Below are positions 306 to 59,538 of a DNA stretch of 64,000 nt, in pieces (position 1 is the stretch's first letter; each line of letters opens with the position of its first letter). The notes below the pieces were generated by a model. It did no database searches and was not told where the DNA came from. It was given only the letters and a program-made list of their open reading frames with translations. Source of the stretch: Tethya wilhelma (Eukaryota > Porifera > Demospongiae > Tethyida > Tethyidae); contig CAXIPT010000002.1 in the NCBI GenBank assembly GCA_964030475.1, positions 5,854,161 to 5,918,160 on the forward strand, in the 5' to 3' direction. Both the position numbers and the translations under genes were made by a program.

Positions 306-3300
306 TTTTTCTTTCTTCTGGAGTTGACTCCTCAGTTGTTCTGTTTCAGCATTGGCTCTGGCTAACGTTTCACGCTCGGACTGCATCAGTTCAACTTGTG
401 CCACCTTCTCTGTCAGTTGGAGGCGAACACTGTCCAGCTCCTGTTGTAAGCCATCAACCTAAAGAAATAGCATGACAATTTCTCTCTAGCTCCTATAAGT
501 GCTAATAGTTACTGGACTTTAAATTAATTTTGGACAATAAATTAGCTCACACATAACATGGACAGATCTTATAAAAAAAATGTACGCATAACACTCGATG
601 GGCACAACCTTGGGTGTATAAAGAACCACCAATGGCTTCCACTGCTCTTAATCCACACAACCTCTCCATCACTGCACTTACTTGCAAGCCATTATCCTCC
701 TTGCTCTCTCTCAGTTCATCCCTGAGACTGCTCACCTGGCTCTCTAGAAGGCTCTTCTCTGTCATGACCCTTCCCAGCTCGTGGGACTTGCCCTCCATCA
801 CAGCTTGGAGCTCTCTCAGAGAGGAGGAGTGGGTGAGATGGAGCTGGCTCAACTCTGACCTCACCTCAGATACCTACATACAATGTGGCATACAACAATG
901 GGTAGTGGAATAATGTTCTTCATAGCAGTAGCCAATGAAGGAGTGTTGCCATACATCTGATTTTAAAGCAAACTGTGTCATACTATGGGGTGGGGAGTAG
1001 TGCCAAAATGTGGCTATTATTACTGTGTAGCTCCAAATTCTTATGGCACAAAAAAAATTCATGAAAAGTTTGTCTTTGCTGCTTTGAACTAATTTTCATG
1101 AATCACGAGCTGTGACAGCTAGCTGAGCGAGCCTAGCTTGAAGCTCAGGCGCTTTGTCTACGCTGTAAGTAGCCATTTCTTTGCTCTTTTCGAAGGTGTA
1201 AAGCAAATTTTTAGCAAGTTTTCATTGCGGTTTACCGCTGGTTAAAGGCGGTCATTACGGTAAACAGTGGAATACCGCTAGTGAAATACCGTAGTTTACC
1301 CACAAAATTCCACGAGTTTACCGCGGATTTCCCCTCACATTTTCACCCGGGATATATGTATGACCAATCAGATTTGAAAATTGATTTTCGGGCCAACTAA
1401 ATTCACTTCCGTAAGAGAGCATATCAAGTTTGTTTACACATTTCTTCACAAGTACAAACACAACTGACCTCCTTGTTTAATCTCTCAACTTCTGCTTCTT
1501 TCTCCTCCACCTGTCTCTTGACCACACCCACTTCCCTCTCAGACTCCGCCCTCTGAGAGGACACATCCTCCAACTGCCGACTCAGCACCCTAACCTGCTC
1601 CCTCGTCTCTTGAAGGGATCGTTCCTCTACGGCCTTCTCGGTGATGGCTGTCTGAAGGGAGGCTTCTTTCCTCAAGAGCTTGTCTCTTAGGTTGTGAGAT
1701 TCTGTCTGGGCGTGAGAGAGACTGGTCTTGGTGGCAGTGAGCTCATGGGTGGTCTGACTCAGAGAGGACTGGGCTTCTTGAAGTCTAAAATATAAAGATA
1801 CAAATATGAAGAGATAAAGAGTGGTGAAAACTTAATTTTTCTTGGCAGTATATAGTTAGTAACTAGCTATAGCCTCGATCCCAGGCCTTCTGCGTGCTCA
1901 GTGCTAGTATTGATTTATTAAGTTGACGATCTTTACCATTTTCGTAATTTTTTAGCACGCAGAAGGCCTGGTGAACGAAATCACGTGAATGACATCAGAA
2001 AACTTGTAGCGTAGGCGGCCTAACCGCAAGCAAGACTTGAAGATTTTTTCTTGTGCACAAGCCCGCGAAGCAAGACAAAAGAGCAGCGTTTTTTTGTCAG
2101 AGTAGCACAGCACTGCGCTAGGCAATGCCTGCCAAAATGTCTCAAAGCAGCAAGAAAGTTTGAGCAAAAAGAACCGATGTCTGGACATATCACTCATATC
2201 TAAGGTCAAACTAAGTCCAAATTTATGTTTACTTGGCTGTTTTGTCTGGTCTTGATCTTTTGACTTCTGTCATCTGGCCTTCAAGCTCAGATTGGCTGCG
2301 CTTGTAGTCTAGCTCCAGGCCAAAGCGCTAGCGCGCAGCATTGGCTCACAAAATTATTCACAAACTGATGATGTCATATGCAAAATACGTGGGCAGTCTA
2401 AGCAGTCCTGCCCACGCGCAAAATCACTTGTCTACCATGCGTCTACCCTCGTTTCCCAGGCCCTCTGCGTGCTTAAATAAAATCATCTGGTAAGGATCGT
2501 CAACGTAATAAATCAACACTAGTAGCACGCAGAGGGCCTGGGGACGAGGCTAAACTAGCTATACATATGTATATGCAGGATCATTCAAAACCACAATTGT
2601 GACAACTCTTCATTTGTACATACATCCTCAAAACTACAATACATATGCATACACATAACACATGCAGTGAGATAAACCATTATTCCTAGAAGTATTATAG
2701 TACCTAGCTATATATACTGCTAAGATCATCTAAACCAGATCATCTAACAATAGTTTGTGTTGCAACAACTCAACACTTCTAGTAAAAATAGCGTTAGATT
2801 GACTATTTCCAATAGGTATATAGTAGACCATACAAAAAGCTTAGTGAACAACGATGGTACTATCTCACCTAGCTCTGAGGCTCTGACAGAGGCTGCTCTG
2901 TTCCTGAAGTTCTCCCACCAGCTGTTGCTCTCTCTCCACCAGCTCCTCTATCCTCTCTCTCTCCTCTTCTCTCACGGGAGCAGCTTGAAGCGTTGCCAAC
3001 TGGTGCTCAAGGATGCTCAGCCTCGACGCCATTTCTTCTTTCTCTGAGACCAGCCTCTCTTCAATCTCCTCTTTGGCTGATAGTCTGTTTCTCATGTCCT
3101 CCAGTTCGTGGATTTCTTGTTGTTTTGCTCGAAGCTGTTCTTCATAGGAGCTTTGCAGTCTGTTTGTCTCATCACGCTGTGTAGATAGCTTGATGTCTTG
3201 TTGCTCACGGTGCAATCTCAGGTCAGAGTTCAACTGGGTGGTGGATAAATAAAGAGTAATATTGAAGAAAATTAGTGGAATGTGGTATCCTTTGATCTGT

Positions 3301-5333
3301 AAATAGAACTCGAATTTACACTAGGAGTGGTGGGTGGTGGATAAATAGAGGTATGTTTTGATCTGTGAATATAGCTTTAATTCACACAAAAATATTCATG
3401 ATCAGTGAATGCAGTGCATGTACTATACATATGTCACACATGTATTAAAGAATGAACAAACCAGCTAGGTCAATGCATTTGCTACAAACCTTTTTCAAGG
3501 CCTCTGATTCTTGCTGGGAGAGGAGCCTGGTCTCTTGAGATTGCTGCAGCTCTTGTCTCAACTTCTCACACGAGCTAGAGAGATTATCAACCTGTACGTA
3601 AGAATCAACAATCACCAGGCATGTTACACAGTGCAACTACATGTAACAAAATTGAGCAAAGAAGATGCTTAAAACACTCTTGATAGATTTCCATCAATGG
3701 GTAAAACTATTTTTGAACCCTGCTATGCAAACAACAAAACAAAAACAACCCAGAAAATAACCAATTAAACCAAACAAACAACAACAACAACAAAAAACAA
3801 CATTAAGTTTGACCTAGCTCCCACAACTATCGTCAACAGTGGACATCAAACATGTGTTCTCATCTTTAAGCTGTTATATGTATTCAAACCATACCTGTTT
3901 CTTCAAGGCTTCTCCTTCAGTTCTCCATCTCTCCACCTCTCTCTCTTTCTCCCTCAACAAGGTCTGTCCATGATGGACCTCTCTCCTCAGCTCCTCCTCC
4001 TCAGCTTCCTTGGCTTTGAATCTTTCCACCAGAGCCTGTGTCTCCTCCACCAGTTCACTCTCAAGGTCTTTGTTGAAGCCACTCTCAACTTGATGGACAA
4101 GATTCTGGAAGGAAATTCAAGAAAATATCACACATAATTACAAAGTTCATCTACACAGCTTTAAAGTTTAGTTACACAATTAAGAAGTATGTGAAAATTC
4201 CACATTTACCATTTTAAAATGCAAATTCATGAAAATAACCTTCAGAAAAATATAAAGGATTATATGGTATACAAGCACACAGGTACAGTGTACTTAATAC
4301 GTTACACATGATAGGCACACTCATGTCTATAGCTATATATCTCTGTTGTTTATCAAAATCCTATGTCATATAGTTACTGTGGCAAAAATTGATTCCATAT
4401 GTTCAAGGTATAACAATAAACATGGCTGTGCAGTACCTGTATCTTCTCTTCAGCAGTGGTCAGAAGTTGTGTCTTGTTGGTTAGCTCACTCCTCAAGTGG
4501 CTCTCTTCTCTCTCCTTCTCCTCCACCACCTGCTCCAGATGGAGGGTGGTCTGTTGGGAGTGAGCCAACTGAGACTGGAGGTCAGTCACTTGAGATTGGA
4601 TATTGGACAGCACCTGTTGGAGCTCTGACACCTATACATGGAGAGTAAACCGTGAAAATAGGAGGTTAATGGCAATGTACCCATGGTTACAAAGAAAATT
4701 ATGCTACACATGTAGAAGGAACGTACATAGAATGGAAAGCAGAAAGGAAGTAAGGAATGAGCGAAGGTAAAGAAAAACATAGGTACATAAAAATGCTGGA
4801 GCTCTGACACTTACAGAGGAAATGAAAGCAAGAAACTTATGGCTATTATTATGTAAACATGATCATACAGTTAGATAGAAGGAAGAGTGGTAGAGCCTAT
4901 GATCAAGGAAATTTTGATTGTACAAAGGTGTTGGACACAGACCATCATGCTCATGTATGTATAGGTGCTATTGATGAGATAGCTTTCTATTTCGTAGTTT
5001 ATTTTGGTACCTTGTATGTACATATACAACTAATAGATCCATTCCTGTATAAGTGTTTTAAGTATTGCTACACATTTTCTATTGAAAGTATATGTACCAG
5101 TAGTACAAATCTATATACATCTTGCACACGAAAGCATTAATTTTAGTGTACACAAAGTCAAAAGCTGTGCTGTTCACCTGTTTGGTGGCATTGACATAGT
5201 TCTGTACCAGGTTACAGACAGCATTGTGGAAGGTTGAGGCCCTAGCTTGTAAGGCTGGTAGATCAGAGAGAAACTGGTAGTCAATATGACTCAAGGTGGA
5301 GTCAAGAGGATCAATGCTGATATCTGGAGGCGG

Positions 5334-30341: not shown

Positions 30342-31120
30342 TACTTGCTGTACATGCAAAGTTGTCCTGTAAGATGGTATATAGTCTTGTCCCCAGACTC
30401 CACTCCTTCTGGGGACAAGACAACTATACTTTGCATGAGTCATGATGAGCGTCGAGTTCTCTAGTTAGCTAGCTATATAGCTTTATGCATATGTACACCA
30501 TAATACCGAAGGTCATCGATATCAAACGTGCGAGGCACTTATATGCACTATGTGTACACCTAGTAGTAACAATATACCTGAACAAACTGGCTCACTTCTG
30601 ATCACATTTCTTATCAATACTTCCTTTTCTTCAGTTAGCCCGGCTAAATCAGATAGTTATAGTTTGTACAGATACACCAATAAAAAATATCTTAATGCCA
30701 TACGTGTAACAGTATACATGTACGACGTACCTCGTCTGTAATCTACTAAGTAGCCCTTTTCCATTGCACTTGCAAGATGACCTAAAATGGTACTAGGAGA
30801 TAAATTTCTTCTTTGAGCTACATTTGCCTGTGTATCACAATAGACGTATGAATGGTAATTTCAAATGGTCACGTATATTCAAATAACTTGCAACATACCA
30901 CAGAAATATTTTGGTCAGTGAAGATTTCATAACTGGCATTCTCTGTGTTAGTGAGGGCAGAAAGAATGTTTGTCCTCTTTACAAGTTCAACCTGATCATG
31001 AGTGAGATATCATAACTCAAATTAAATTCAGGGGGAAATGCATATGTGCAACGAAAAGAACTGGAAGCTCCAGTGCTTGAAACAAACACCAAAAGAGCTC
31101 TAGAACAGATTGTTAGTATT
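30342..31120 (-). pseudogene. Inverted partial copy of the WRN winged-helix (HTH) exons
   Basis: Near-identical inverted copy of 57406-58193, which carries WRN exons 28-30. Copied exons lie at 30991-30899, 30827-30731 and 30643-30578, with acceptors and donors kept. Coding differences that I read are synonymous (for example TTG to TTA), so the duplication is recent. No helicase or HRDC exons accompany it, so it cannot make a helicase. The right border coincides with the n at 31121, which leaves open an assembly artefact. A GTCTTGTCCCCAGACTCC hairpin near 30390 is part of the copied segment. Confidence 0.85.
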
Positions 31121-31164
31121 NTGAACAAACCTAGGCGAAACAAATAACTATTATTGAATAATCA

Positions 31165-44078: not shown

Positions 44079-47000
44079 ATGGAAGCTGAAAGCGATGCAG
44101 ACTCACTATCAAACTTTGATTTGCTACAATCTCTACGTGGTCTTAGTAGAAAACTCGATGCTTGTATAGAGAATGTATCCTGCACTACATGCATTGACTT
44201 TCTTTCTGAAAAGAATTTGATACTCAGAAAGACTGTAACAGAGCTTCACTTAGAGTGTCTGAGAGTAGGAGAAAAATTGGACAAGTTTTTGAAGTTTTTG
44301 CATCAACATAAGGTGTGTAAGTTTAGATATTTGATATTATAAAAAATATTGCTGCATTGCATTGAGGGTTGATAGGAATAATAATAAGCTTACACCACCA
44401 GTGGTAGATCCAGGGAGGATCCAAGGATGCAAAGTAACCTGCCTTTCAGTAAGCAAGAATATGCAGATTACTAATTTAGTATCTATTTACCACCAAATGC
44501 TCAAAAATTTCACTAAGTACAACTCTTATGAAAGATTATTCAGTTTCTATACCTGCCTCTTTCTAGCCATTTTTTGACATATTAGCCTATAGTTTTGGAA
44601 AGCTTTCAAAGGTGCAAAGCTAAAACCAAAAGTGGGCTGGGCTAGGACAAATTTTTTTGCACATGTTCTCTTTGGAACCCTCTTTTCATAATCCTGCTTC
44701 TGCAAATGGCCACCTGGTATAATTCCATGGTTTTCCTGGTATCTATCATCATAGCTAATTGACAGTGTACACAAGAACAGGTCCATGAACTGAAGGGGGG
44801 AGAGAGATACCCACACTAGATAGGGAGCATCTGTAAATAAACCAATGGCCAATGAAGAGTATTTGCAAAGGTTCAGTTGCATTCTTCAGCTCCAGTCCGG
44901 AAGCTGACTGTCTTTGAAGAAATCAATATTTAACGGGGCAAAGGGCAAAGGTGATGTAACTGGGGTAATTCTGACAACCAAAATGACATGTCATTAAGCA
45001 TAAGTACAAGTATTCATAGATTCAGCAGGATGATATAATGGTTCTCAAGAAGATTTTGTCTAACACATAACCTGGACCAAACTAATCAACACCCACACAT
45101 GTTGTACTCATGCAAACAACTCAACTTTTGTCTTATTTGTAGCTCTACTTTGAATAGTTTACAAGGGGTACCAGCTCCCATATGCACTCTACTAGGAGCC
45201 ACAATTGCGATCCTGTTAAAATGCTGTGGACAGAGCTGAATTTTGGCAACTTGACCTTGGACCTCACTTTTACATGCTACTAATTTCATAAAATGACAAA
45301 TTACATTAATGCTGCAAGGCTAGGATACTGCTGGGAATGTCTGTTTACTGTGCATTGCATTCCATTTGCAATCAATTTGTCTTGTGATCACCAACCATTT
45401 CATGTTTAGCATTTATAGTTTTTTTATAGAGAGCATTTATGTGAAATCTGAAGTTTAATCCTGCTCTTGTTATGTGAAACTTATTGTCTAAATTTGAGTT
45501 ATCTTGTTCTTAGTATTATATTCTGCATCCCCAGGATTTGTAAGATTTAAGTTGTGACATCTCATTCCCACAAGGGTTGTACAGTTGTTTGTCGCAGGCT
45601 TTTTTTGTTCCTGAGAAAAAATCATCGCTAATTAAAAGTATGTACCACACAAAAAATGCAAACCTCTATTTTTTTCAGCTTTTATCTTATTTCAAATACA
45701 CTGAGGTTACAAGGCTGATTAGTATAGTAATTATGTGATGTTCTGAAAGTCCAGTAGCCTCGGACAATCTCAAAGTACTGCATTTAATTTGTACCTGCAT
45801 AGCAGCATCATCAGAATAATCATAGAGAAGACTACATGTATGTGGTGTCATAATTGTGCTCAGGTGTCCAGCAATAAAGTGTAGTGTATAATTATGTGAG
45901 TGCGCAATTTTTATTCATTTGAAAATTAATATTGTATGTTTGACATTTTTCTCAATTTCTCGTTGATTTTAGACTGATCTGCAATTGGACGTGGATGATG
46001 TGTACAGGTCATCTGCAGTGTGTACCAATCCTAGTAAGCTCAACGATAGTGACTGCTTTTTTGTAAATTACTATAACACCATTTAGTACACATGCATGGC
46101 AATGTATGAGATATAACTAATTGTAGTATTTCCTCACAGGCATTGATAATGACTCCAAGTTTGTGTGTGCATTATCAGAAAAACAACAAGCTGATAAAGA
46201 TCTACTATCTGATAATGGTCAGCCTCTTTGTGGTATATCTGTGCTGATAAGTATACATTTGAATGCAGGCTGTTACATATAATAATCATCATACATATCC
46301 ATATCTAGCCAGTATTTTGAAGTTATATGTTCCATGTGCATCAAGAAAAACAAGTTGATCATTGCATCTGTTGTCCTAATTGCTATTGCTACCCTTTCTT
46401 TTTTCATCATCAAATAAAAATAAGAATTGAAAATGCATTTTGGTACAGTATGACACTTTTTTGTCGTTTGTACTGCTTACATTGTTTTCATGAAACAAAT
46501 ACACTCACAAACTGGCTGCAGTATCTCTCTCTATACATACTGAGAGGCCGAAAGTAAACAATATAGATCTGAGTGATACAGAAAGTAATTTGGTCGATAG
46601 AGAGGACTCCACTGATGTGAAGACAATGGTGGAAGTAGCTAAAGATAACAGTACTGAGGACCTGTTTGATGCCAGAGTGATAGGTACGTAAGACATTTAC
46701 TTTAGATCTCTTATATAGATCGAAATTATTTTATGAGCAATATCTACTTCACAAGTAGAAACACTCTAAAAAGATAAGTGTCAATGTCATTCACACAGTT
46801 TTATTTAGGAATTAATTAATGCACATTTCTATTTAAATATCTAATGATTAATCTGTCTAATTGCATCCAACTGACAATGGCTTAGTTATCAAGAGTAGCT
46901 ATATTATCTCTTGAATTTCTCTCCTTGCTTAAAATCTACTTGTCTATTCTGTGAAGTACTAGTCCTGATTTATTGACAACTCAGACTTCAAGCTTGAATG

Positions 47001-50000
47001 AATTATAACATGACAATTTATATATCATTACAATGCTCTATTTATTCTGATTACAATGGTGCTAGTTATATTTTTTGTATGACAATGTTCTAATTTTACC
47101 AAAAGGCAATGAATTTGTATTCATAGGGTACGATACTACCTTTTATGGCCAAAGCTAGGTTCTAATAAAATATTATTTACAAGTAGTTACAATCGACTGA
47201 ATTTTAGCTTACAGATTGGTAAGCAAAAAATAATATTTATATAGATTACAAGAATTGATCACAGTAAGGACAATAACGCTCTTATGTATATTCGCCCAGT
47301 ATGAAAGTTTAGCTGCTGTAAAAATACATGGACATTATTTCTTATTGTTGCATGTTATCCTTGCAATGTACCGTGGAATCGCCTGAGTCATTAAGTGCAC
47401 TTCACATTAATTTTAGTACACATTGATTATTAGGTCCATACAATCTTTGATTATTTCTCTTTGATAAGAGGCGCATTGTTGTAGTTCTTAAAGCTGGAAG
47501 TTCTCAGTGTCCATGTATAGTAGTGTTCTAAGCATAACAGCACTTTCCTTGACAGTTTGGCTCTCCATTTTGCTTGGAAAAGGGGGGTTCTCAAGCACTA
47601 GCATGTGCTTGAAAAATGCTCAAAAAGGTCATATGACAGAATAACTAAACTCTACGTCATTGTAACTGGAAGTTGAATTTTTGTGCTTCATTTCTAGTGC
47701 TTTATCAAAATAATTATGTTCTGGTCAGTTGACTATACATATGACAATGTACATCATTTAATCATAGTCATTACAGAGTATAGAAAGTAATTCTAGCAGA
47801 TGTTATGATTATATCAGGTTGCCAACCCCCATCTCTATGTCATATTGATATCTTAAAGAAGAAATTTGGACATTCAAAGTTCAAACCGTAAGAAAGTTTG
47901 ATATGCAACTACTAGACTAGAATTTAAAATTCAAGTGGTATCACTATATTGTGTTGCAGGGAGCAATGGAGAATCATTCACTCTCTCCTTTTCGAACAGA
48001 GAGACAACTGTGCAGTCATGGCTACAGGTAATATTTTTTCTTATGTTTTGTTTTTTCCTCATAAACCAAACTGCTTGTGTCTGTACATACATTATAGTAG
48101 CGTTGTTTTTATTATATTATGTATAAATAGAATTGAATGTGGTGTTTTGTTTGTCAGGCCCAGGGATCCTGTTTTGACTCGTACTTTCCTTTTTTTGTGA
48201 AACAATTTGAGAAGCATACCCCTAGTTTATAGTACAGAGAAGTAATGGCTTAGTGGGATAATTTATTATTATGCAGCAAGATTGTCTTTTTTAATGCTCT
48301 AAAACAGTGTCAAGTATGTGGGCCAGACAAAGTTGGTACAAGCTGCCATATTTTCACCTGTTTATACCTATACATGCACAACCACACTCAAGGATTTGGC
48401 AAGAGTCTCTGCTATCAATATCCAGCTGTTTATACTGATAAGGTGGTTGTAGTTGTGTCTCCTCTTATATCCCTGATGGAGGACCAAGTCATGGCATTAA
48501 AGTATAAAGTGCTACTTGTTATAATAATTCATTGCCTGTATTTATTGGTACAATTGCAGTTTTAAAGGCATTCCAGCAATTTTCCTTGGTTCTGCTCAGA
48601 GTGATGGGTCATCAGCTGTCTCACAAATTTTGACGTAATTTTTTGTATCACTTTGACCAGAGGAGGTCTGGCATCTGTGGGTTAATTGCAGACCATTTTT
48701 AAATTAACAGATCATGTCACTCACATTTTCTAGTCTTAATTAAGATGCTACTGCTTGGAAATAAGCTGGGTTTTGTTCTCTTTCCTGTTTCCTTGCTAGA
48801 TAGTTGCTTAGAGGGTAAGACAGCCTTTGCAAATGGCTATATTCTTACCCGGAAATATTGTCATGTGATTGCCAAAGTTTTGTAACCGACCCATAATTGA
48901 CCTCCGGATGTTGGACTTCCTCTGCACCATGACATAGCATACCAAACCTAAATATTCTATTCTTACATGCACTATTCTGCAGTGGATCAATTCGAGTTGT
49001 CTATTTGACTCCAGAATATATTATGCATGCGTCATCTCTCATCTGCAGCATTAACAAGAAAATTGGTGAGATATGTTAAGTAGTTACATTATAACCATCA
49101 TAATATTATGACCCAGCTAACTTGGGTACCCTTATTTGCAATTTATTTTCTTACAAAAAAAAACAATGAATAACACTGTACAAACGTAATAATAGTTTGG
49201 TTTGCCTATGGTCCGTACGTACATTTTGATGCCATGCCCACTCAGTCCGTGGCTTAGTGGTACGAGTGCCTGACTAGTTGTGTGAAGGACTCTACATTTC
49301 TAGATGCATCCTGCACATAGACTGGAAACATTTTTAAACTTATATTTTTCTGTCATGACTGTAACTTTTTTCTATGAGTGAATTTACTTTAGGTTTCACA
49401 ATGCTAATTGTTTTAATTACAGGTATTGTACTAGTTGCTATTGATGAAGCTCACTGTGTTTCACAGTGGGGCCATGACTTTCGTTCACACTATCGTAGTC
49501 TGAATGTTATCAAAAGCTGGCTTCCTAGTACGCCTATTCTAGCTCTCACAGCAACAGCCACACCTCCTGTTCGCAAGGACATTTGTACCTCTCTACACTT
49601 GAAGGACCCACTGGAGACATTTACAAGTTTTGACAGGTATTTACATACAACATATGTTTGTGCAATTAATTGGTTACCCAGCATTCAGCCTACCTTTAAT
49701 ATGTTGTAAGTACACTCATTACATGTAGAATGACCAATTCTAATAATTATGATTCCCAGTACGGTAAGTACTGGGTACATAGGAATGGCATGGATGGCCC
49801 ATTAACACAATACAAGTATTCACGCTAATAACTGCAAAAAATAAGCGCTTGGTACTGTAAGGCTTCAAAAGCTTCTTTTTAGCTCATTCTTTTTCTAACG
49901 AGCCTAAAAACATGGCCTAAAACCATTGCTTGAATACTAAATAAAACTAAAATATCCCAAACCTCCCAATTTCTCTATCTTTTTCTTCTTATTCTTCTAT

Positions 50001-53000
50001 GTTGGCAAGACTTTTCTCAGAGACTGCTTGCTTTCAGAAGCTAATTCATGAAATAAACTTGCATGACCGGTGTCTTTGCCTTCATGTGCTTTTGGCATCG
50101 GTTTTTCGCATGTCTCTTGTCCAGTCACTAGATACAAGACAAAAAGCACCTTTTCCGTATGGTAGCCATTATTTCTTTACTCGTTCTTACTATATTTCTA
50201 ATGTTTTTTTTTCTTGTGTAAATATTACTGATTTACATTAAAGATCACAAGTGTGATATATAACTTTCACTAAGGAAATGTAGCATGGGGAGAACATTTG
50301 CTTTAGGAGTCTGTTTCTTTGATGCTGTAGACAAAACTTAGCTAACCAGATATTTAAGGAGTTCTTTTCAATTGTAAAATTTGCAGACATCAGTAACGGT
50401 TGTCTGTGACACTACATAATAAATTCACTCTGCGTAGCAAATTTGTACGGTCATACAATTTATTTGTGTTGCAGACCTAATTTATATTTGGCTGTCCACG
50501 TACGCTCTGATTCTGTCTTAGAGGACTTGAAACCATGTATGGTAGCTACAAAGAGAGGGCTCAGGTGAGTTCTATATTTGCTGCAATTTGAATTGTGCTG
50601 TTGAAACAATTATTGTTTTAACTTGCTGTGTTCAAATATAAGTTTATTTATCATCTAATCGTTATAGGACAGTGTATTCATTTGAAGGTCCTACCATAGT
50701 GTATTGCAGAACTAAACAGATGACTGAAAATGTTGAGGCAGTGCTAAAAAGTACGTTATCCTATTTGGATCCAGGCCTTTCTTTTAAGCTTACCTCCTCT
50801 CCCTGCATTTGTATAGACAATGGTGTGAATTGTGCCAAGTACCATGCTGGGTTAACTCCTACACAAAGAAAAGAAGCCCATCAACGGTTCCGCCATGATA
50901 GTCTGCAGGTATTATTATACCCACAGAGATCAAAATTCGGCTTTACATCTCATGCGTGATATACGGTTTGACCAGATAATCATGCAACTAGGTCCATGTT
51001 AGCTGCATCACTCTATGAGGCTCTTATGTGCATTCATATTGTGCTATAGTTAAGAATATGCAAAGGGTTATGCAACGTTGGTGCCTTGGGTTTAGTAATG
51101 TATATGATATGCTGTTTATGCTTTCTTTGTCTTTTACTCAGTGTATTGTAGCAACCGTAGCTTTTGGGATGGGAATTGACAAGCCTGGCATCAGAATGAT
51201 CATCCACTACGGAGGTATAGAATTATAGAAGAGAGAAAAGTAGTTCATTTAATATTAGTAAGTCCAGCAATGTACAAACTACCATCTAATTGCTGTCCTA
51301 GCACCACAAGATATTGAAACATACTATCAAGAGATTGGGCGTGCAGGAAGGGATGGGTATGTCCGTCTTTACTTATAGAAATATTTTACTAATATACAAT
51401 TGACATATTTTTTTAGCCAATCAAGCAAGTGCTATGTCTACTTCAAGCATAGTGATTTCCAAACTAATCGGTTCTTTTTGAGAGACATTACTGACATGGA
51501 CTTTAAGAGTCACAAGTTGGAAATGCTGGTGAAGATGGAGAGATATTTGTCGCTTTCAGGTTGCAGGAGAAGGTTAGTGATATGTCTACCTGGAACAAAT
51601 GTTCCACTTTTAAAACTTTTGTAGTATTTCTGCTGTATACATATGAGAAAATTAATGTGTTTTTTTTACATAATGAGTTACTATAATTATGAGCTTGTCA
51701 CTGAATCGGATATTATTTCACTCAGGTTTCTTTTAAGTCATTTTTCTGAGAACCTTCCATCTTGTGTAGGAGGGCACAGAGATTGTTGCGATATCTGTAG
51801 GAAAATGTATGTAAATTCATGCAAAATTAGATATGTATATTAACTTGTGGTTTCTTCTACCTTTTCCATATTTTGAAGACTCTCTCAACCAATCACTACT
51901 TCAGTGGATTCTACTGACTCTGCGTTAGAGTCTCATGACTATTCAGCTGATGCTAAAATGATAATGGAACTTATCAATGTGAGACTGTGTGTACAGTATA
52001 GTTTGTAAAAAAAGTAATTCGAATATTAATATAAAAGTCTTCCTCCAAACCTTTCTATAGTTTAGATTATTATAATTTTGTTTGTACAGTTCAATATTCT
52101 GAGCTGTGAAATGAAAAGTGCACTACCGTTACCAATTATTCTTTTTCTCCATGTGCATTGCACTAGGAAATTGTCTGTATAGTCACCTTATTATAGAATC
52201 TTTTGTGGTGATACAGAGATTAATTTTTTTCTAATGTTAATTTTTTATTCAGGACTCAAATGAACATGGCTATTCCTATGGAATTACCATGTACACATAT
52301 ATACTTCGTGGCTCAGTAAGTTGTACTGTATGCAAATTCACCTTCTGATTTCTTTATACATCTTTCATTGTTACTGTGTGTGTATAGCAAAGCCAAAGAA
52401 TTCCACACTGGGCTAAATCAAGTAGACTCTATGGAAAGGGAATGTGAGTGCTGTTCTCCAATCAATAATTAGATTTAGTTGTGTGTTTGGAATTACAAGT
52501 ATATGTTTGCAAAAATATATTGACTGATGGATATGCATTTTGTCTGTAAACTGTTTTTAAAATCGAATTTTGTTATAGCCATAACAGTGAAAAGTGGTGG
52601 AAAGAGTTTGGTAAGAAATTAAAGGAATAAATTCATTCATAGCTGAGATTATTTTAAGTTTGATTTGTTTATTTTAGTGTTCCAGTTGAAACTGCAAGGT
52701 TACCTTCAGGAGAAACCAGTTAAGGGTAGCTTTGGTTGCACTATTCATCTTTCATCTGAAGGGAAAAGATGGTTCAATGATGGTTCTGTAACTACTATCA
52801 AATTTACACCTAGTGATTTCCTCCTCTCTTTGGAGAATGTATCACAAGCAGGGACATCAAGGTGCAAAATGATTGTTATAATATTACACTAGTTGTGGTT
52901 GACTCCCAATTTGTCCATTTTGAAGGTCTCACCTCCCTAAAACTGGAACAAGTTATAAATCTAGTTCTTTTGTACACAACGCTGTACCCATCTATCTTCC

Positions 53001-55643
53001 TACCACCTCCAATCGTGATGCCTATCAGACAGTTGTCATTGAACGCAAAGAAATGTTTGAAGCTCAATCACCTTCACATAAGGATGCCAAGACATCTAGC
53101 TTGGAGGTAGGATGTTACAGTAATTATTGTAATGTGGATAATTATTTCTTGGAGCATTTACATATCATTCAGAAAGAATGTTTCAGCTCAATAATGTCTA
53201 TCTCAACAAATTTGTTAGTATATTATTATAAGTCACTCTACTATATACAATATACATGGTGTATGTTAAAGGAGATATGGGACCCCAGAGTTACACTATG
53301 AGTGGCAAACTACATCTATGATCACAAATATATTTATCTATTTTGTCATGTTTGTGCTATATATTATCCTTTTGCTCTGATTTTATTGTCTACTTATGTG
53401 TGGTAGGTATGGTTTCGCTGAAACCGGTAGAAGTATCTAGTGCTGTGTTATAGTTGTTTTTATGTCCAGTTGGTCAAAATGAGGAAGCCCTTGTGGAGGC
53501 AACAGAGGTGGGTACTCATCACTGTGGTCCAATCGATAAGGTCGTAGTTCAGTTACTTCCTTTTTCTTGCATTTTTCTATCAAGTCTTTCAACTTCAGTA
53601 GAAATCTCTTTGGTACAAGGTGATATACAGCCAGTATTAATCCATACATGGGTGGAATAAATATTAGGAATATGCCATAATTATACCAATATTTGTGAAC
53701 ATGCTTTGGATCGACTATAGCCACAAACCGAAAAGCGGGAAGTCCATACCACGTGATAGCAAAAATTAAAAAGAGGAAAAGATCCAATGTATTTAGTTTG
53801 TCATTTTTGTATGGCCTGACTGTGGCTATGATGAATGCTGTGATAATGTACATGATGGCAGACAAGGGGAAGTAGAAGGGACTTGTAGTTATTGCAAATA
53901 GAGCTACATTTGTAATTCTAAACATCAAATAATAGGCTGCAATGTATCTACAATCGTGTGATTTAAGTTTGTAACAGCCAGTGAATATGTCCATGAAAAT
54001 GTGAAGGGGGTGGAAATGGAAGTTGAAGCAGTTCAGGCACTTGTGAAAGCATCGACAAGGGTAGACTCCAAGAAGAACAAGTGGGATAACATTGAATGTT
54101 ACAAACATAAACAGAGCAAGGCAAGCATATGGGAGGTGTTCTTTGCCAAAATATTCATAAGTACCATCATAGTAAAGATAGAGTTTTGGCAGCTTTGCTC
54201 CTGTGGCATCATGTAGCACCACAGGAGTGAGGAGATCAAATGAAATGTTGACAATTTTTACATACGAGAGTAGAATAAAAGTGGCAAAAGCTCCAATGAG
54301 AGAATTCTGAAGATCCCATTCTCGTCGAATGTGAGCCAAACACTTGTAGAATGGTCTCCAAAGAGTCACAACTATGCTGTAGTGGTAGTGGAGCTTGTAG
54401 AAGATGTAGGTTATGAATATCAGAATCAAAGGATAGATAGCTATCACATACTCTAGAGCCAGTGTGTGTAGAATTGTTAGCTTTTGATGCAAACAGAAGG
54501 GATGGTAAAATCCTCGAAACAGATCCAGATTCCATATCTTGTAGAAGAATACAAAGATGTTGAAAAATATTCTGTCGTTGGACTTATTCACTTCTAACAT
54601 ACGTATTATGAATGGAGCTGCACATAGTTGACTGATCAAAATGTATGCATTGAGTTTACCTGAAGTCACTGTAATTTTGAAAACTATCACAATTACGTAT
54701 ACTACAGTAAGAGGAAGGAATGCCACTGCAAAATACTTCAACCAATTGTAGGTGTAGTGCTTACATTTAACACACTCTGAGCTGTAGGAATATATAGGAG
54801 GAGAGTAACCATCCATACATTTGCCACACATTTGTCCTTCCCTCTTTAAATTTTTGCATGTACCTTCAGAAGAGACGTAACTAAAGTCTATGAAGTCACA
54901 GTTGAAGTAACAATAGCCAACAACTGTTTTGTTGAAAATTTCATTGTGTGTCATACACTGACACACTGAAGTGCTCACTTCGAGAGTGTATGGATCACAT
55001 TTGACCACTCCATTGAGGCTGTCCCCACACTTGCATCCACTGCCATCATCAGTCGGTACTGCCCACAGTTTATTGCAGTCACCTGTCGTTACTGTAGCTG
55101 TTAATGTATCAGAAATTTTGTTGGTAGTATTATCACATGCTGCAGCTGCTATTAGTAGCATCAGTATGATTCTTCTCAATGAAACAGTAAAGGAATCATT
55201 TTCAATTTTCATTGTTTTGGTCATAATGCTAGCTAGGATACTCACTATAAAAATCACTTATTAACTAGTCAAATATCCTCTTTTTTTTCTCTTTCAAACT
55301 TCAGAAATTATAAACTGCCTGCAGCTAAAGATCCCTATATTGTTATAATACAGCTGTAATGCTACTGTTTTGTTTTTCTGCATGTATAGTTTTCTTTATT
55401 TTTGTTTATCATTAGTTTTAGCAAATGGTCATAATTTTTTTATGAATGTTATTTTTTCTACATTGTACCTGTATTGCGGAATCCAAAATTTAATGTACAA
55501 AAACAAGCACAGAATTGAAACTAGTTTAAGCTTCAAAATGCACATTATTCATAGTTTAATGCACTTCTTTAGTTACTGTAAACATGAATTCGCCTCACGG
55601 TATGACACACACACTGGTACATACACAGGCACACACCACATTC

Positions 55644-55684
<41 letters not shown>

Positions 55685-58600
55685 TGTTGTTAGAGGATAC
55701 TAGTAATGTAAGAAATAGTACACCAAGCACTATAATGTTTAGTGTCCAAGCCATTTACATCCTAACCTCTTGTAAGCACATAATTCTAAGCATGCTCAGA
55801 GAAAGCCTCATGTTAGGGGTTATGTCAGATCCTTCGGGTCCTAACGAAACCTTTAATGTTATATTGCACTCTCTTTCCACTTCGCAATGTGTAGAATGCA
55901 GTTTACCAAGCATTGATTTCTCTACGAAATCGTATTTCCATGGAAAAAGATGTTGCACCATATATGGTAGCAAACAACACACTACTGGCTGAACTGGCTA
56001 AGACAAGGTATAAACATAACCTACCTGTGTATCCTTAATGATGAATGTACATTATATACCTATTTGATTTGGTGACAATTATTTTTGCTGGTATGCAACT
56101 TCTTCCCTACTATACACTTACACAGACCAACTTCTGAGCATATCTTGAAGAATGTTGAAGGAGTATCCGAAAAATGGCTAAGAGAGTATGGAGACTCTAC
56201 CTTAAAAACAATAGCTGTAGTTTGTCAGACTGAAGGTACTGATTCCCCTGTTACCATGGACATTGTACCTGAAGCTATGAAGACTAAACTAGAGGGAAAA
56301 GTTATTAAGGTGATTACAATGTTGGATAAGTACCAAACTTAATTATTTAGTAATTATTTTCTAGTTAATGGCATTACGGTGTATATATAGTAGTAATACT
56401 GTTGTTAGAGGATACTAGTAATGTAAGAAATAGTACACCAAGCACTATAATGTTTAGTGTCCAAGCCATTTACATCCTAACCTCTTGTAAGCACATAATT
56501 CTAAGCATGCTCAGAGAAAGCCTCATGTTAGGGGTTATGTCAGATCCTTCGGGTCCTAACGAAACCTTTAATGTTATATTGCACTCTCTTTCCACTTCGC
56601 AATGTGTAGAATGCAGTTTACCAAGCATTGATTTCTCTACGAAATCGTATTTCCATGGAAAAAGATGTTGCACCATATATGGTAGCAAACAACACACTAC
56701 TGGCTGAACTGGCTAAGACAAGGTATAAACATAACCTACCTGTGTATCCTTAATGATGAATGTACATTATATATCTATTTGATTTGGTGACAATTATTTT
56801 TGCTGGTATGCAACTTCTTCCCTACTATACACTTACACAGACCAACTTCTGAGCATATCTTGAAGAATGTTGAAGGAGTATCCGAAAAATGGCTAAGAGA
56901 GTATGGAGACTCTACCTTAAAAACAATAGCTGTAGTTTGTCGGACTGAAGGTACTGATTCCCCTGTTACCATGGACATTGTACCTGAAGCTATGACGACT
57001 AAACTAGAGGGAAAAGTTATTAAGGTGATTACAATGTTGGATAAGTACCAAACTTAATTATTTAGTAATTATTTTCTAGTTAATGGCATTACAGTGTATA
57101 TAAAGTAGTACATATGATATAGTGCTGGTTACATAGTAAGTATGTATAATTATGTTAGAACATGCCTGGCCCACTCTTTTTACCTAATAATAATAATTAT
57201 TATTTCATCGTCTATTTGAAAGTGCCCATCAGTAGGTATGCATGTATATATCATGGCACTTAGAGTTTTGCTGCCTGTGTTTTCACTTTTGAGTGTAGTT
57301 CAGGCTGCTATATTGTCAACACATGAAATTTGAGCAAATACAGTAGTTCCTGCTACAAACATTCGAACTTGAAACAGAAAACAAAGACTATGTACGGAGA
57401 AAAGCAATACTAACAATCTGTTCTAGAGCTCTTTTGGTGTTTGTTTCAAGCACTGGAGCTCCCAGTTCTTTTCGTTGCACATATGCATGTTCCCCTGAAT
57501 TTAATTTGAGTTATGATATCTCACTCCTGATCAGGTTGAACTTGTAAAGAGGACAAACATTCTTTCTGCCCTCACTAATACAGAGAATGCCAGTTATGAA
57601 ATCTTCACTGACCAAAATATTTCTGTGGTATGTTGCAAGTTATTTGAATATACATGACCTTAGATTAGCATTTGAAATTACTATTCACATGTCTATTGTG
57701 ATACACAGGCAAATGTAGCTCAAAGAAGAAATTTGTCTCCTAGTACCATTTTAGGTCATCTTGCAAGTGCAATGGAAAAGGGCTACTTAGTAGATTACAG
57801 ACGAGGTACGTCGTACATGTATACTGTTACACGTATGGCATTAAGATATTTTAAATTGGTGTATCTGTACAAACTATAACTATCTGATTTAGCTGGGCTA
57901 ACTGAAGAAAAGGAAGTATTGATAAGAAAAGTAATCAGAAGTGAGCCAGTTTGTTCAGGTATATTGTTACTACTAGGTGTACACATAGTGCATTTAAGTG
58001 CCTCGCGCGTTTGATATCGACGACCTTCGGTATTATGGTGTACATATGCATAAAGCTATATAGCTAGCTAGCTAGAGAGCTCGAGGCTCGTCATGACTAA
58101 TGCATAGTATAGTTGTCTTGTCCCCAGAAGGACTGGAGTCTGGGGACGAGACTATATACCATCTTACAGGACAACTTTGCATGTACAGCAAGTATATGGG
58201 TCATTCCATTTCAATTCAACAACATTTCGCAAGTGACCTCCTTGAAATTCCACCAAACTTAGTACAGTTGTAGTGTGTAATAAGACATTATTCAAAACAA
58301 TATATTAGGCCCTCAACTTCTATGGCTTCTGAGTAATGGGCATCCAAAAATCAAGCTTTTTCAGAGATTTTGCTCTACACCTTAGCCTTGATACAGCCAT
58401 AACTTTCTTATAAAGCTTCGATAGGACAAATGTTTAGTACCATCATGTTGTCCATAAAATTCCCTTTCAGATGAAATATTGTATGGCTTCATCCGATCAA
58501 GTGGTCAGAGAACTACTATTACTTCAATTTGACCTATGACCTTTCTGAAAAAGTGCTGACTCAATTTTTTTTATTTTCAAACATCACCATTCTTAGGCAT

Positions 58601-59538
58601 TAAACTACTGTTTGACCGAGTTTTTGACCGAGGACGTTGTTTTGTAGTACATAGCTTCTGCATGTCCCTAGCTTGCTAAACAGCTTAGCTATACAAAAGG
58701 CTAAATGTACCTAGCGTAGCTTGCTCTGACTGAGTTCATGTGACCTGCATACATGGTGCATGGCTGGCTTGCAAGAGTCTGTGATTTTCTAGTGAGAGCA
58801 CAGCTAGAATGCCATGAACTGTAGTACTTCATTGAATGACATACTGTACAAAATCAGTGCTCCTCGATCTGTGAGAGGCACATCATGCACTATGTGTACT
58901 ACTAATTATTATATTATTATACACAGTTGAGCACAATTCAGAATTCTCCCCACGATAACTTATGCAGAGTGGTACCAAGAAAGCATCAAAGCATTCTTGT
59001 GGTTGTTAGGCATTCTTTCAATTAAAATTAACCACATTAAAGAAAGATTAGCACAACAAGAGTGGTATAGCATTGCTCTGACAAGCTTTAGGGAGAGCCC
59101 TGATTCAATTAAGTGTGCAGTTATTCATGATGTTTTGTGGTATAGAAGTTAATATGTGACACTCACATGCACATTATGCATGCAGACATAGGTTGTCTTT
59201 CTGCTATAAAGCAACAGCTTCCAAACCATATTGGATTTGGTGAAATCAGGCTTACTATTGCTCTACTCTCTATTCTCACTGGCTTTGTGAAGTCTGCAGA
59301 AGGCAGTCAACAATTTAAAAAAAGTTCTCCAGTAAATGCAGTTACTCCTTCGCAGAGAAAGTCATCCGCAGATTCTGGTATATCTAAAGAGGTGAGCTCA
59401 TCCTCATCCAATTGGTACAGCAGGCAGAGTTCTTCACAACCATGTGGTACCAAGAGGAAACTGCCATCTTCTTTTCGGAGTGGATCAAGTACTCAAGACA
59501 TTGGCCTCAAACCTAAAATTAAAAAAAAGTTTTGGTAA
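44079..59538 (+). CDS. WRN: Werner-type RecQ helicase with two HRDC domains, no exonuclease domain
   Basis: ATP-dependent 3'-5' DNA helicase for replication and repair. 31 exons: 44079-44312, 45973-46033, 46140-46217, 46522-46683, 47818-47887, 47960-48027, 48393-48501, 48560-48634, 48983-49065, 49423-49636, 50475-50564, 50668-50750, 50817-50908, 51142-51214, 51302-51356, 51417-51572, 51726-51806, 51879-51978, 52253-52315, 52388-52443, 52579-52610, 52678-52861, 52926-53106, 55895-56007, 56126-56309, 56610-56722, 56841-57024, 57535-57627, 57709-57805, 57893-57958, 59186-59538. Total 3,603 nt, 1,200 residues, in frame throughout. Residues 1-205 form an acidic/helical N-terminus without a DnaQ-like exonuclease. 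Then [11 protein letters not shown] (about 225), [13 protein letters not shown] (about 320), EIGRAGRDG, a zinc site with CRRR and CCDIC, RQC winged helix ([15 protein letters not shown]), HRDC twice (about 801-899 and 900-998), HTH ([18 protein letters not shown]), and a basic KPKIKKKFW end. RecQ motifs and this C-terminal layout identify WRN rather than BLM or RECQ1. Confidence 0.92.
49245..49322 (+). repeat. Possible tRNA-derived SINE head
   Basis: GTGGCTTAGTGGTACGAG resembles a pol III A box and CTGACTAGT is shared with the 25142-25222 fragment. The B box is degraded. It lies in a WRN intron. Confidence 0.3.
49755..50200 (+). repeat. Interspersed repeat family A, copy 3
   Basis: CCAGTACGGTAAGTACTGGG start, TACATAGGAATGGCATGGATG, ACGAGCCTAAAAACATGGCC, CTAGATACAAGACAAAAAGC: the same order as copies 1 and 2. 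Inserted in a WRN intron, in transcription sense. Confidence 0.85.
53437..55224 (-). CDS. Intronless Cys-rich multi-pass membrane protein nested in a WRN intron
   Basis: A 595-residue ORF, taking the ATG at 55224 as start (the frame runs 11 codons further without an ATG). A hydrophobic leader ([10 protein letters not shown]) is followed by a Cys-rich ectodomain of about 130 residues containing [16 protein letters not shown] and the motif [20 protein letters not shown], then ECVKC. About eight to nine hydrophobic segments follow, beginning [20 protein letters not shown], and the cytoplasmic tail is Lys/Pro-rich ([29 protein letters not shown]). I know of no named family; the GQxCGxCxxGYxPPxYSY motif plus multi-pass body matches my memory of uncharacterised, multi-copy proteins of sponges. 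A receptor or transporter role would be a guess. It lies wholly inside the 2.8-kb WRN intron 23, on the opposite strand, and needs its own promoter. Confidence 0.85.
   Translation of the reverse strand: MTKTMKIENDSFTVSLRRIILMLLIAAAACDNTTNKISDTLTATVTTGDCNKLWAVPTDDGSGCKCGDSLNGVVKCDPYTLEVSTSVCQCMTHNEIFNKTVVGYCYFNCDFIDFSYVSSEGTCKNLKREGQMCGKCMDGYSPPIYSYSSECVKCKHYTYNWLKYFAVAFLPLTVVYVIVIVFKITVTSGKLNAYILISQLCAAPFIIRMLEVNKSNDRIFFNIFVFFYKIWNLDLFRGFYHPFCLHQKLTILHTLALEYVIAIYPLILIFITYIFYKLHYHYSIVVTLWRPFYKCLAHIRREWDLQNSLIGAFATFILLSYVKIVNISFDLLTPVVLHDATGAKLPKLYLYYDGTYEYFGKEHLPYACLALFMFVTFNVIPLVLLGVYPCRCFHKCLNCFNFHFHPLHIFMDIFTGCYKLKSHDCRYIAAYYLMFRITNVALFAITTSPFYFPLSAIMYIITAFIIATVRPYKNDKLNTLDLFLFLIFAITWYGLPAFRFVAIVDPKHVHKYWYNYGIFLIFIPPMYGLILAVYHLVPKRFLLKLKDLIEKCKKKEVTELRPYRLDHSDEYPPLLPPQGLPHFDQLDIKTTITQH
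55684..57113 (+). repeat. 715-bp tandem duplication carrying both HRDC exons of WRN
   Basis: Unit 1 (55684-56398) and unit 2 (56399-57113) are about 99% identical. Only about five differences were read, including CAG/CGG and AAG/ACG codons (Gln/Arg and Lys/Thr) in the second HRDC exon. Each unit holds an acceptor, a 113-nt exon (phase 0 to 2), an intron and a 184-nt exon (phase 2 to 0), so each adds 99 residues in frame. Confidence 0.97.

Follow-up and report, generated by a model that had tools for sequence, protein, structure and literature searches.

Metazoan WRN proteins, such as those of human and of the sponges Halichondria panicea and Dysidea avara, carry DEAD, Helicase_C, RecQ_Zn_bind, RQC, HRDC and HTH_40 domains; the precise function of HRDC in WRN has been described as unclear (PMC4212688). 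Among related helicases, RecQ of Deinococcus radiodurans has three HRDC domains at its C-terminus (PMC4163472), and within human WRN itself residues 424-477 form a tandem repeat of a 27-aa acidic segment (PMC3927811). False duplications are also described from published draft genomes, in which they are mostly shorter than 2 kb, have a median identity of 98.1% and seldom exceed 99.5% identity; most of those with coding content comprise one or two exons (PMC2864568, Kelley and Salzberg 2010). A gap between copies on the same scaffold has been given as a main mark of such duplications (PMC9516828, Ko et al. 2022).

We analysed a window of 64,000 nt (the whole stretch of DNA under study) from Tethya wilhelma that contains a WRN helicase gene. 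This gene has the same set of domains as the metazoan WRNs named above but, as assembled, it differs from them in having a second complete HRDC, and no exonuclease domain was found. It resembles D. radiodurans RecQ in having several C-terminal HRDCs; however, the three domains of that protein are separately named, whereas those considered here are encoded by intron-bearing DNA that is 99% identical between copies, in a gene of animal type, and the second of them is possibly not real. The 27-aa repeat of human WRN is likewise tandem and in frame within WRN, but is a short acidic stretch rather than a folded domain. With false segmental duplications of drafts, as characterized in the two surveys cited, the HRDC units share being short, adjacent, about 98-99% identical and in containing one or two exons, and differ from them in having no gap between copies and in keeping the reading frame. 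The features of the locus, in positions of the window, are as follows.

30342..31120, reverse strand: inverted copy of 57406-58194 (WRN exons 28-30 with introns), 95.4% identical, which stops at a single N at 31121
44079..59538, forward strand: WRN helicase gene, 31-exon model, based on Pfam domains, collinearity with human WRN and an open spliced frame
55645..55678, no strand assigned: (CA)n microsatellite run, ending 2 bp before unit copy 1
55681..56395, forward strand: unit copy 1 (715 bp)
55895..56007, forward strand: exon 24 (A1), N-half of HRDC 1
56126..56309, forward strand: exon 25 (B1), C-half of HRDC 1 plus linker
56396..57110, forward strand: unit copy 2 (715 bp), joined bluntly to copy 1 without N
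56610..56722, forward strand: exon 26 (A2), N-half of HRDC 2, identical to A1
56841..57024, forward strand: exon 27 (B2), C-half of HRDC 2, which has R and T in place of the Q and K of B1
57535..57958, forward strand: exons 28-30 (HTH_40 region), the next after the HRDC cassette

The hand-built WRN model has AG/GT at all internal borders and a single terminal stop, and comprises 1,201 codons including the stop (1,200 residues if both cassettes are used). Pfam profiles matched DEAD, Helicase_C, RecQ_Zn_bind, RQC, two HRDC stretches and HTH_40, and the four domains that make up the RecQ helicase core (DEAD, Helicase_C, RecQ zinc-binding and RQC) all scored above their cut-offs. When queried with a single HRDC, the part of the protein from RQC to the C-terminus is collinear with residues 1011-1355 of human WRN (E = 2e-25). 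The exonuclease profile PF01612 had no match in residues 1-241 of the protein, nor in the window as a whole. The Pfam domains and the collinearity with human WRN thus bear out the identification of the gene as WRN in an earlier note on this DNA, and our independent spliced model reproduces the total of 1,201 codons given there.

Exons 24-27 are 113, 184, 113 and 184 nt long, such that each cassette of 113 + 184 nt encodes 99 codons in phase 0-2-0. An HRDC profile built for this study matches residues 804-871 and 903-970, in each case over positions 2-69 of its 69, and the C-half exons extend about 30 codons beyond the HRDC core. Splicing of all four exons leaves the frame open through exon 29, as do the routes A1-B1, A2-B2 and A1-B2 and the route with no cassette; the two unbalanced routes tried, A1-A2-B2 and A1-B1-B2, both run into a stop. 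The description of each unit as a two-exon HRDC that is entered and left in phase 0, with all four exons splicing in frame, therefore holds for this model. Of all possible placements of a 715-bp unit in the WRN gene, 13% cover whole exons in frame, 20% cause a frameshift, 40% cut an exon and 28% are intronic. Because 13% of placements keep the frame, its preservation at this locus is mild evidence only.

The two units lie head-to-tail with a period of 715 and are identical at 710 of 715 positions (99.3%); BLAST paired the copies over 719 bp at 99.2%, far beyond chance. Alignment of the copies confirmed the head-to-tail repeat, the roughly five differing sites and the two amino-acid changes reported previously, and the repeat itself stands, with its ends moved from 55684 and 57113 to 55681 and 57110. 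Inspection of the joint at 56395/56396 showed it to be blunt, with 0 bp of microhomology, and no N occurs inside or between the units. Five positions differ between the copies: 56059/56774 (C/T), in the intron between the cassette exons; 56227/56942 (A/G, Q to R) and 56281/56996 (A/C, K to T), both in the second exon of the cassette; and 56378/57093 (G/A) and 56388/57103 (T/A), both in the trailing intron. The initial 378 bp are without any difference, all five being in the distal 337 of the 715 bp, a clustering with a chance of about 0.02 if differences were uniformly placed (worked by hand, after the fact). The left edge of the repeat lies 2 bp past the end of the (CA)n run, and only 0.34% of window positions are as close to where a long dinucleotide run stops; inspection of the right edge revealed no special feature.

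Coding and non-coding positions differ at about equal rates (2/297 and 3/418, respectively), and both coding differences are replacements, a pattern that gives no indication of both copies being under selection. The earlier note had concluded, from the copies differing at about five sites with two amino-acid changes, that both were kept open. This does not follow, as with five differences a neutral copy would not yet have had time to decay.

We compared the HRDC complement of the gene with that of its homologues. A full-length query holding a single HRDC gave at least 7,991 matches under E 1e-30, and the best 120 of these, some of them without an organism name, were used. The best matches are to a WRN-like protein of Halichondria panicea (52% identity) and to a protein without a name (51%); those of the 120 that are named are animal WRNs. 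With the profile built here, exactly one HRDC was found in 119 of these 120 and two complete HRDCs in none, against two in the assembled gene model. A second HRDC is thus as rare in metazoan WRN, among these best homologues, as had been claimed. The WRN model of the pearl oyster Pinctada imbricata (P0097) has one and a half HRDCs, the full domain following a near-identical copy of its N-half; this duplicated N-half (residues ~656-775) ends at the same point of the domain as exon A here. An exonuclease is present in 15 of the 120, all vertebrate-named (counted by eye), and on these sequences the domain is not a defining feature for invertebrate WRN. At the Q/R site, 24 of the best 120 homologues have Q and nine have R; at the K/T site, 17 have T, and K falls outside the twelve commonest letters. 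Both changed residues are, by this comparison, at variable positions.

A query with the double-cassette protein found no match at E 0.001 or below among 7,999 candidates, in a database that shows no protein of the same species in the lengths searched, and a query with the C-terminal region of WRN had no match among 4,569 candidates. HRDC matches to designed PPR proteins (PDB) were rejected as repeat artefacts; no single stretch passed alone. Elsewhere in the genome HRDC matches occur at two places, both on contig C1; one of them has same-strand PF01612 matches about 3 kb away, the arrangement of an EXOSC10-type gene. Literature searches returned nothing that joins HRDC, WRN and sponge, and the titles and beginnings of abstracts listed contained no mention of a tandem HRDC in an animal WRN.

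The assembly comprises 124.6 Mb in 204 contigs. We sampled runs of N in 264 kb, made up of the window and 20 stretches (200 kb) of contig C1, and found 29 runs, 25 of them single-base, with 257 N bases in 264,000. For 15 of the 29, a dinucleotide run is no more than 30 bp away, which indicates that contigs in this assembly often break at microsatellites. Nine further small loci (L002-L010), with eight N runs, were excluded from the 29 because seven of the nine had been chosen for likeness to the flank of the repeat. A published draft of T. wilhelma was built from Illumina, Moleculo, Hi-C, Chicago, Nanopore and 10X data with SSPACE-LongRead and GapCloser, and has 126.1 Mb in 557 scaffolds with 1,030.7 kb of N (PMC11347921). 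Compared with that draft, as described in its report, the assembly analysed here differs in total and in contig number, and its sampled share of N is well below; it is nonetheless plausible that the assembly corresponds to the published GapCloser-built draft.

Near-identical tandem pairs like that of the HRDC units are found elsewhere in the assembly. In the 200 kb of C1 the sole other gapless tandem pair of more than 99% identity and more than 200 bp is in stretch L032, where positions 1364-4604 hold a perfect (100%) tandem duplication of 1,620 bp (540 codons) within an open frame of 2,451 codons; its edges have no microsatellite. By eye, this long frame looks like a repeat-rich membrane-protein gene. 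A second pair (L035, positions 946-4195), located through a scan for AAA domains, is also gapless and blunt, with units of 1,625 bp and one difference. Its unit holds four exons of an AAA gene that total 902 nt, which is not a multiple of three; when the exons are spliced in full, copy 2 is out of frame and the joined exons reach a stop at their codon 304. With a single copy the frame reads cleanly on into the next exon. In our judgement, a duplication that would truncate such a gene is more easily an assembly fault. The identity range published for false duplications, as summarized in the survey of drafts, fits the 99.3% of the HRDC unit, but not L032 or L035.

In genome-wide scans for four domain families, matches were read by eye for equal-scoring same-strand neighbours within 3 kb; as only part of the candidates was scored, the counts are lower bounds. 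The AAA scan gave at least one pair (L035) among at least 21 matches (19 of 198 candidates scored). No pair was seen for Helicase_C (at least 128 matches; 150 of 181 candidates scored), RRM_1 (at least 99 matches; 150 of 164) or Pkinase (at least 128 matches; 125 of 1,421), nor was there a further tandem pair in the ~29 kb of L002-L010. These four results suggest that near-identical tandem pairs are not everywhere. Several candidates were set aside: an AAA pair on C9, 5.2 kb apart, contains an 851-bp repeat of 100% identity that is truncated by the end of the stretch, is not a simple tandem and was left uncounted; a 125-bp pair in L026 (99.2%, period 93 bp) was not counted as a like pair; and short-period arrays or repeats below 99% (L018, L024, L025, L026, L028, L029, L031, L033 and L034) were not counted.

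We consider it probable, though not proven, that the second 715-bp unit is a false tandem duplication made during gap closing of the draft. The right-hand contig would have started directly after the (CA)n repeat, and gap closing from the left side would have run across that repeat and onward through DNA already present in the right-hand contig; with the overlap missed, 715 bp would have been written twice. We infer the gap-closing step itself, and the real locus would hold a single HRDC cassette. The edge at a microsatellite, the blunt joint and the distal position of the differences would fit an extension in which the beginning of the following contig was written a second time. In favour of an artefact we counted the pattern of gaps near dinucleotide runs, the presence of (CA)n at one edge only, the lack of microhomology, the distal position of all five differences, the L032 and L035 pairs (the latter out of frame), the failure to find two complete HRDCs in any of the 120 best homologues, the size range of published false duplications and the likeness to the T. 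wilhelma draft built with SSPACE-LongRead and GapCloser. Against it we counted the joint without N, the preservation of the frame and of all splice sites, the frame of L032 that stays open and its edges without microsatellite, and the lack of a further like pair in the ~29 kb of L002-L010; moreover, the AAA gene of L035 could be rescued through exon skipping. Near-identical tandem duplications with blunt joints also occur naturally, and since repeats can promote breaks, an edge at a microsatellite is compatible with a real duplication too. The earlier note had offered a false duplication from merged haplotypes as the main alternative; a false duplication does appear the likelier reading, but we do not favour merged haplotypes as its simple cause, and prefer an overlap at a microsatellite during gap closing.

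A real and recent in-frame tandem duplication, yielding a WRN of 1,200 aa with two HRDCs about 30 residues apart, seems to us unlikely, if far from negligible. Such a protein would act as an ordinary WRN, a 3'-5' RecQ helicase with strand separation by RQC, and the doubled HRDC could be a docking module of higher avidity for DNA or partner proteins. The intact frame, splice sites and HRDC matches, the placing of the Q/R and K/T changes at variable positions and the joint without N are all consistent with it, and precedents exist in the three HRDCs of D. radiodurans RecQ (PMC4163472) and the 27-aa repeat of human WRN (PMC3927811). However, none of the 120 best homologues has two complete HRDCs, no transcript was found with the double-cassette protein query (the database showing no protein of the same species in the lengths searched), the assembly has like pairs of which one would truncate an AAA gene if fully spliced, and one edge of the unit lies at the kind of site where the assembly tends to break. 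It is doubtful that this is a sponge WRN translated with two near-identical tandem HRDCs, in a genome that repeatedly makes blunt tandem duplications of 0.7-1.6 kb; with its copies still undiverged, such a protein would be the first case of a doubled HRDC in an animal WRN. We think it quite improbable that the DNA is truly duplicated and yet silent or segregating, being carried by one haplotype or giving an mRNA with one HRDC. The routes A1-B1, A2-B2 and A1-B2 are all open and every whole-single-cassette route tried is in frame, the copies are too alike to reveal age or selection, and neither coding difference is silent, which is what a lack of constraint would produce; yet no positive sign of a second haplotype was seen at the HRDC duplication. 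If the duplication were real, it would offer a natural test of the role of HRDC in WRN. If, as we think probable, it is false, then exon duplications in this assembly that are gapless, in frame and nearly identical need the support of reads before they are taken for gene innovation, and other such pairs in it are owed an equal check.

The inverted copy of WRN exons 28-30 at 30342..31120 has intact splice sites and five coding differences in 256 nt, four of them silent by eye. It could have arisen by partial duplication long ago or be a misplaced piece of the other haplotype; as these two origins are indistinguishable, it was used neither for nor against an artefact. If it is the other allele, its difference of 4.6% would make allelic variation a poorer match for the 0.7% by which the HRDC units differ.

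Other features were observed in and around the gene. Within WRN intron 23, on the opposite strand (53437-55257, reverse strand), lies an intronless open frame of 606 codons that by eye looks like a multi-pass membrane protein, with a weak match to DUF7630 below the cut-off. Related sequences occur at dozens of places in the genome, and the frame has a cysteine-rich motif in common with the long frame of L032. The last WRN intron (58194-58623) holds a dispersed element of ~430 bp, found at many places at 75-98% identity; at four or more places it occurs as pairs in opposite orientation, separated by ~0.8-1 kb, an arrangement that resembles a transposon with long inverted ends. Lastly, C1:5529643-5530104 and C3:4215849-4216310 hold the same helicase block of two exons, equal in scores and in spacing; it may be a haplotype copy left in the assembly or the result of a recent dispersed duplication.
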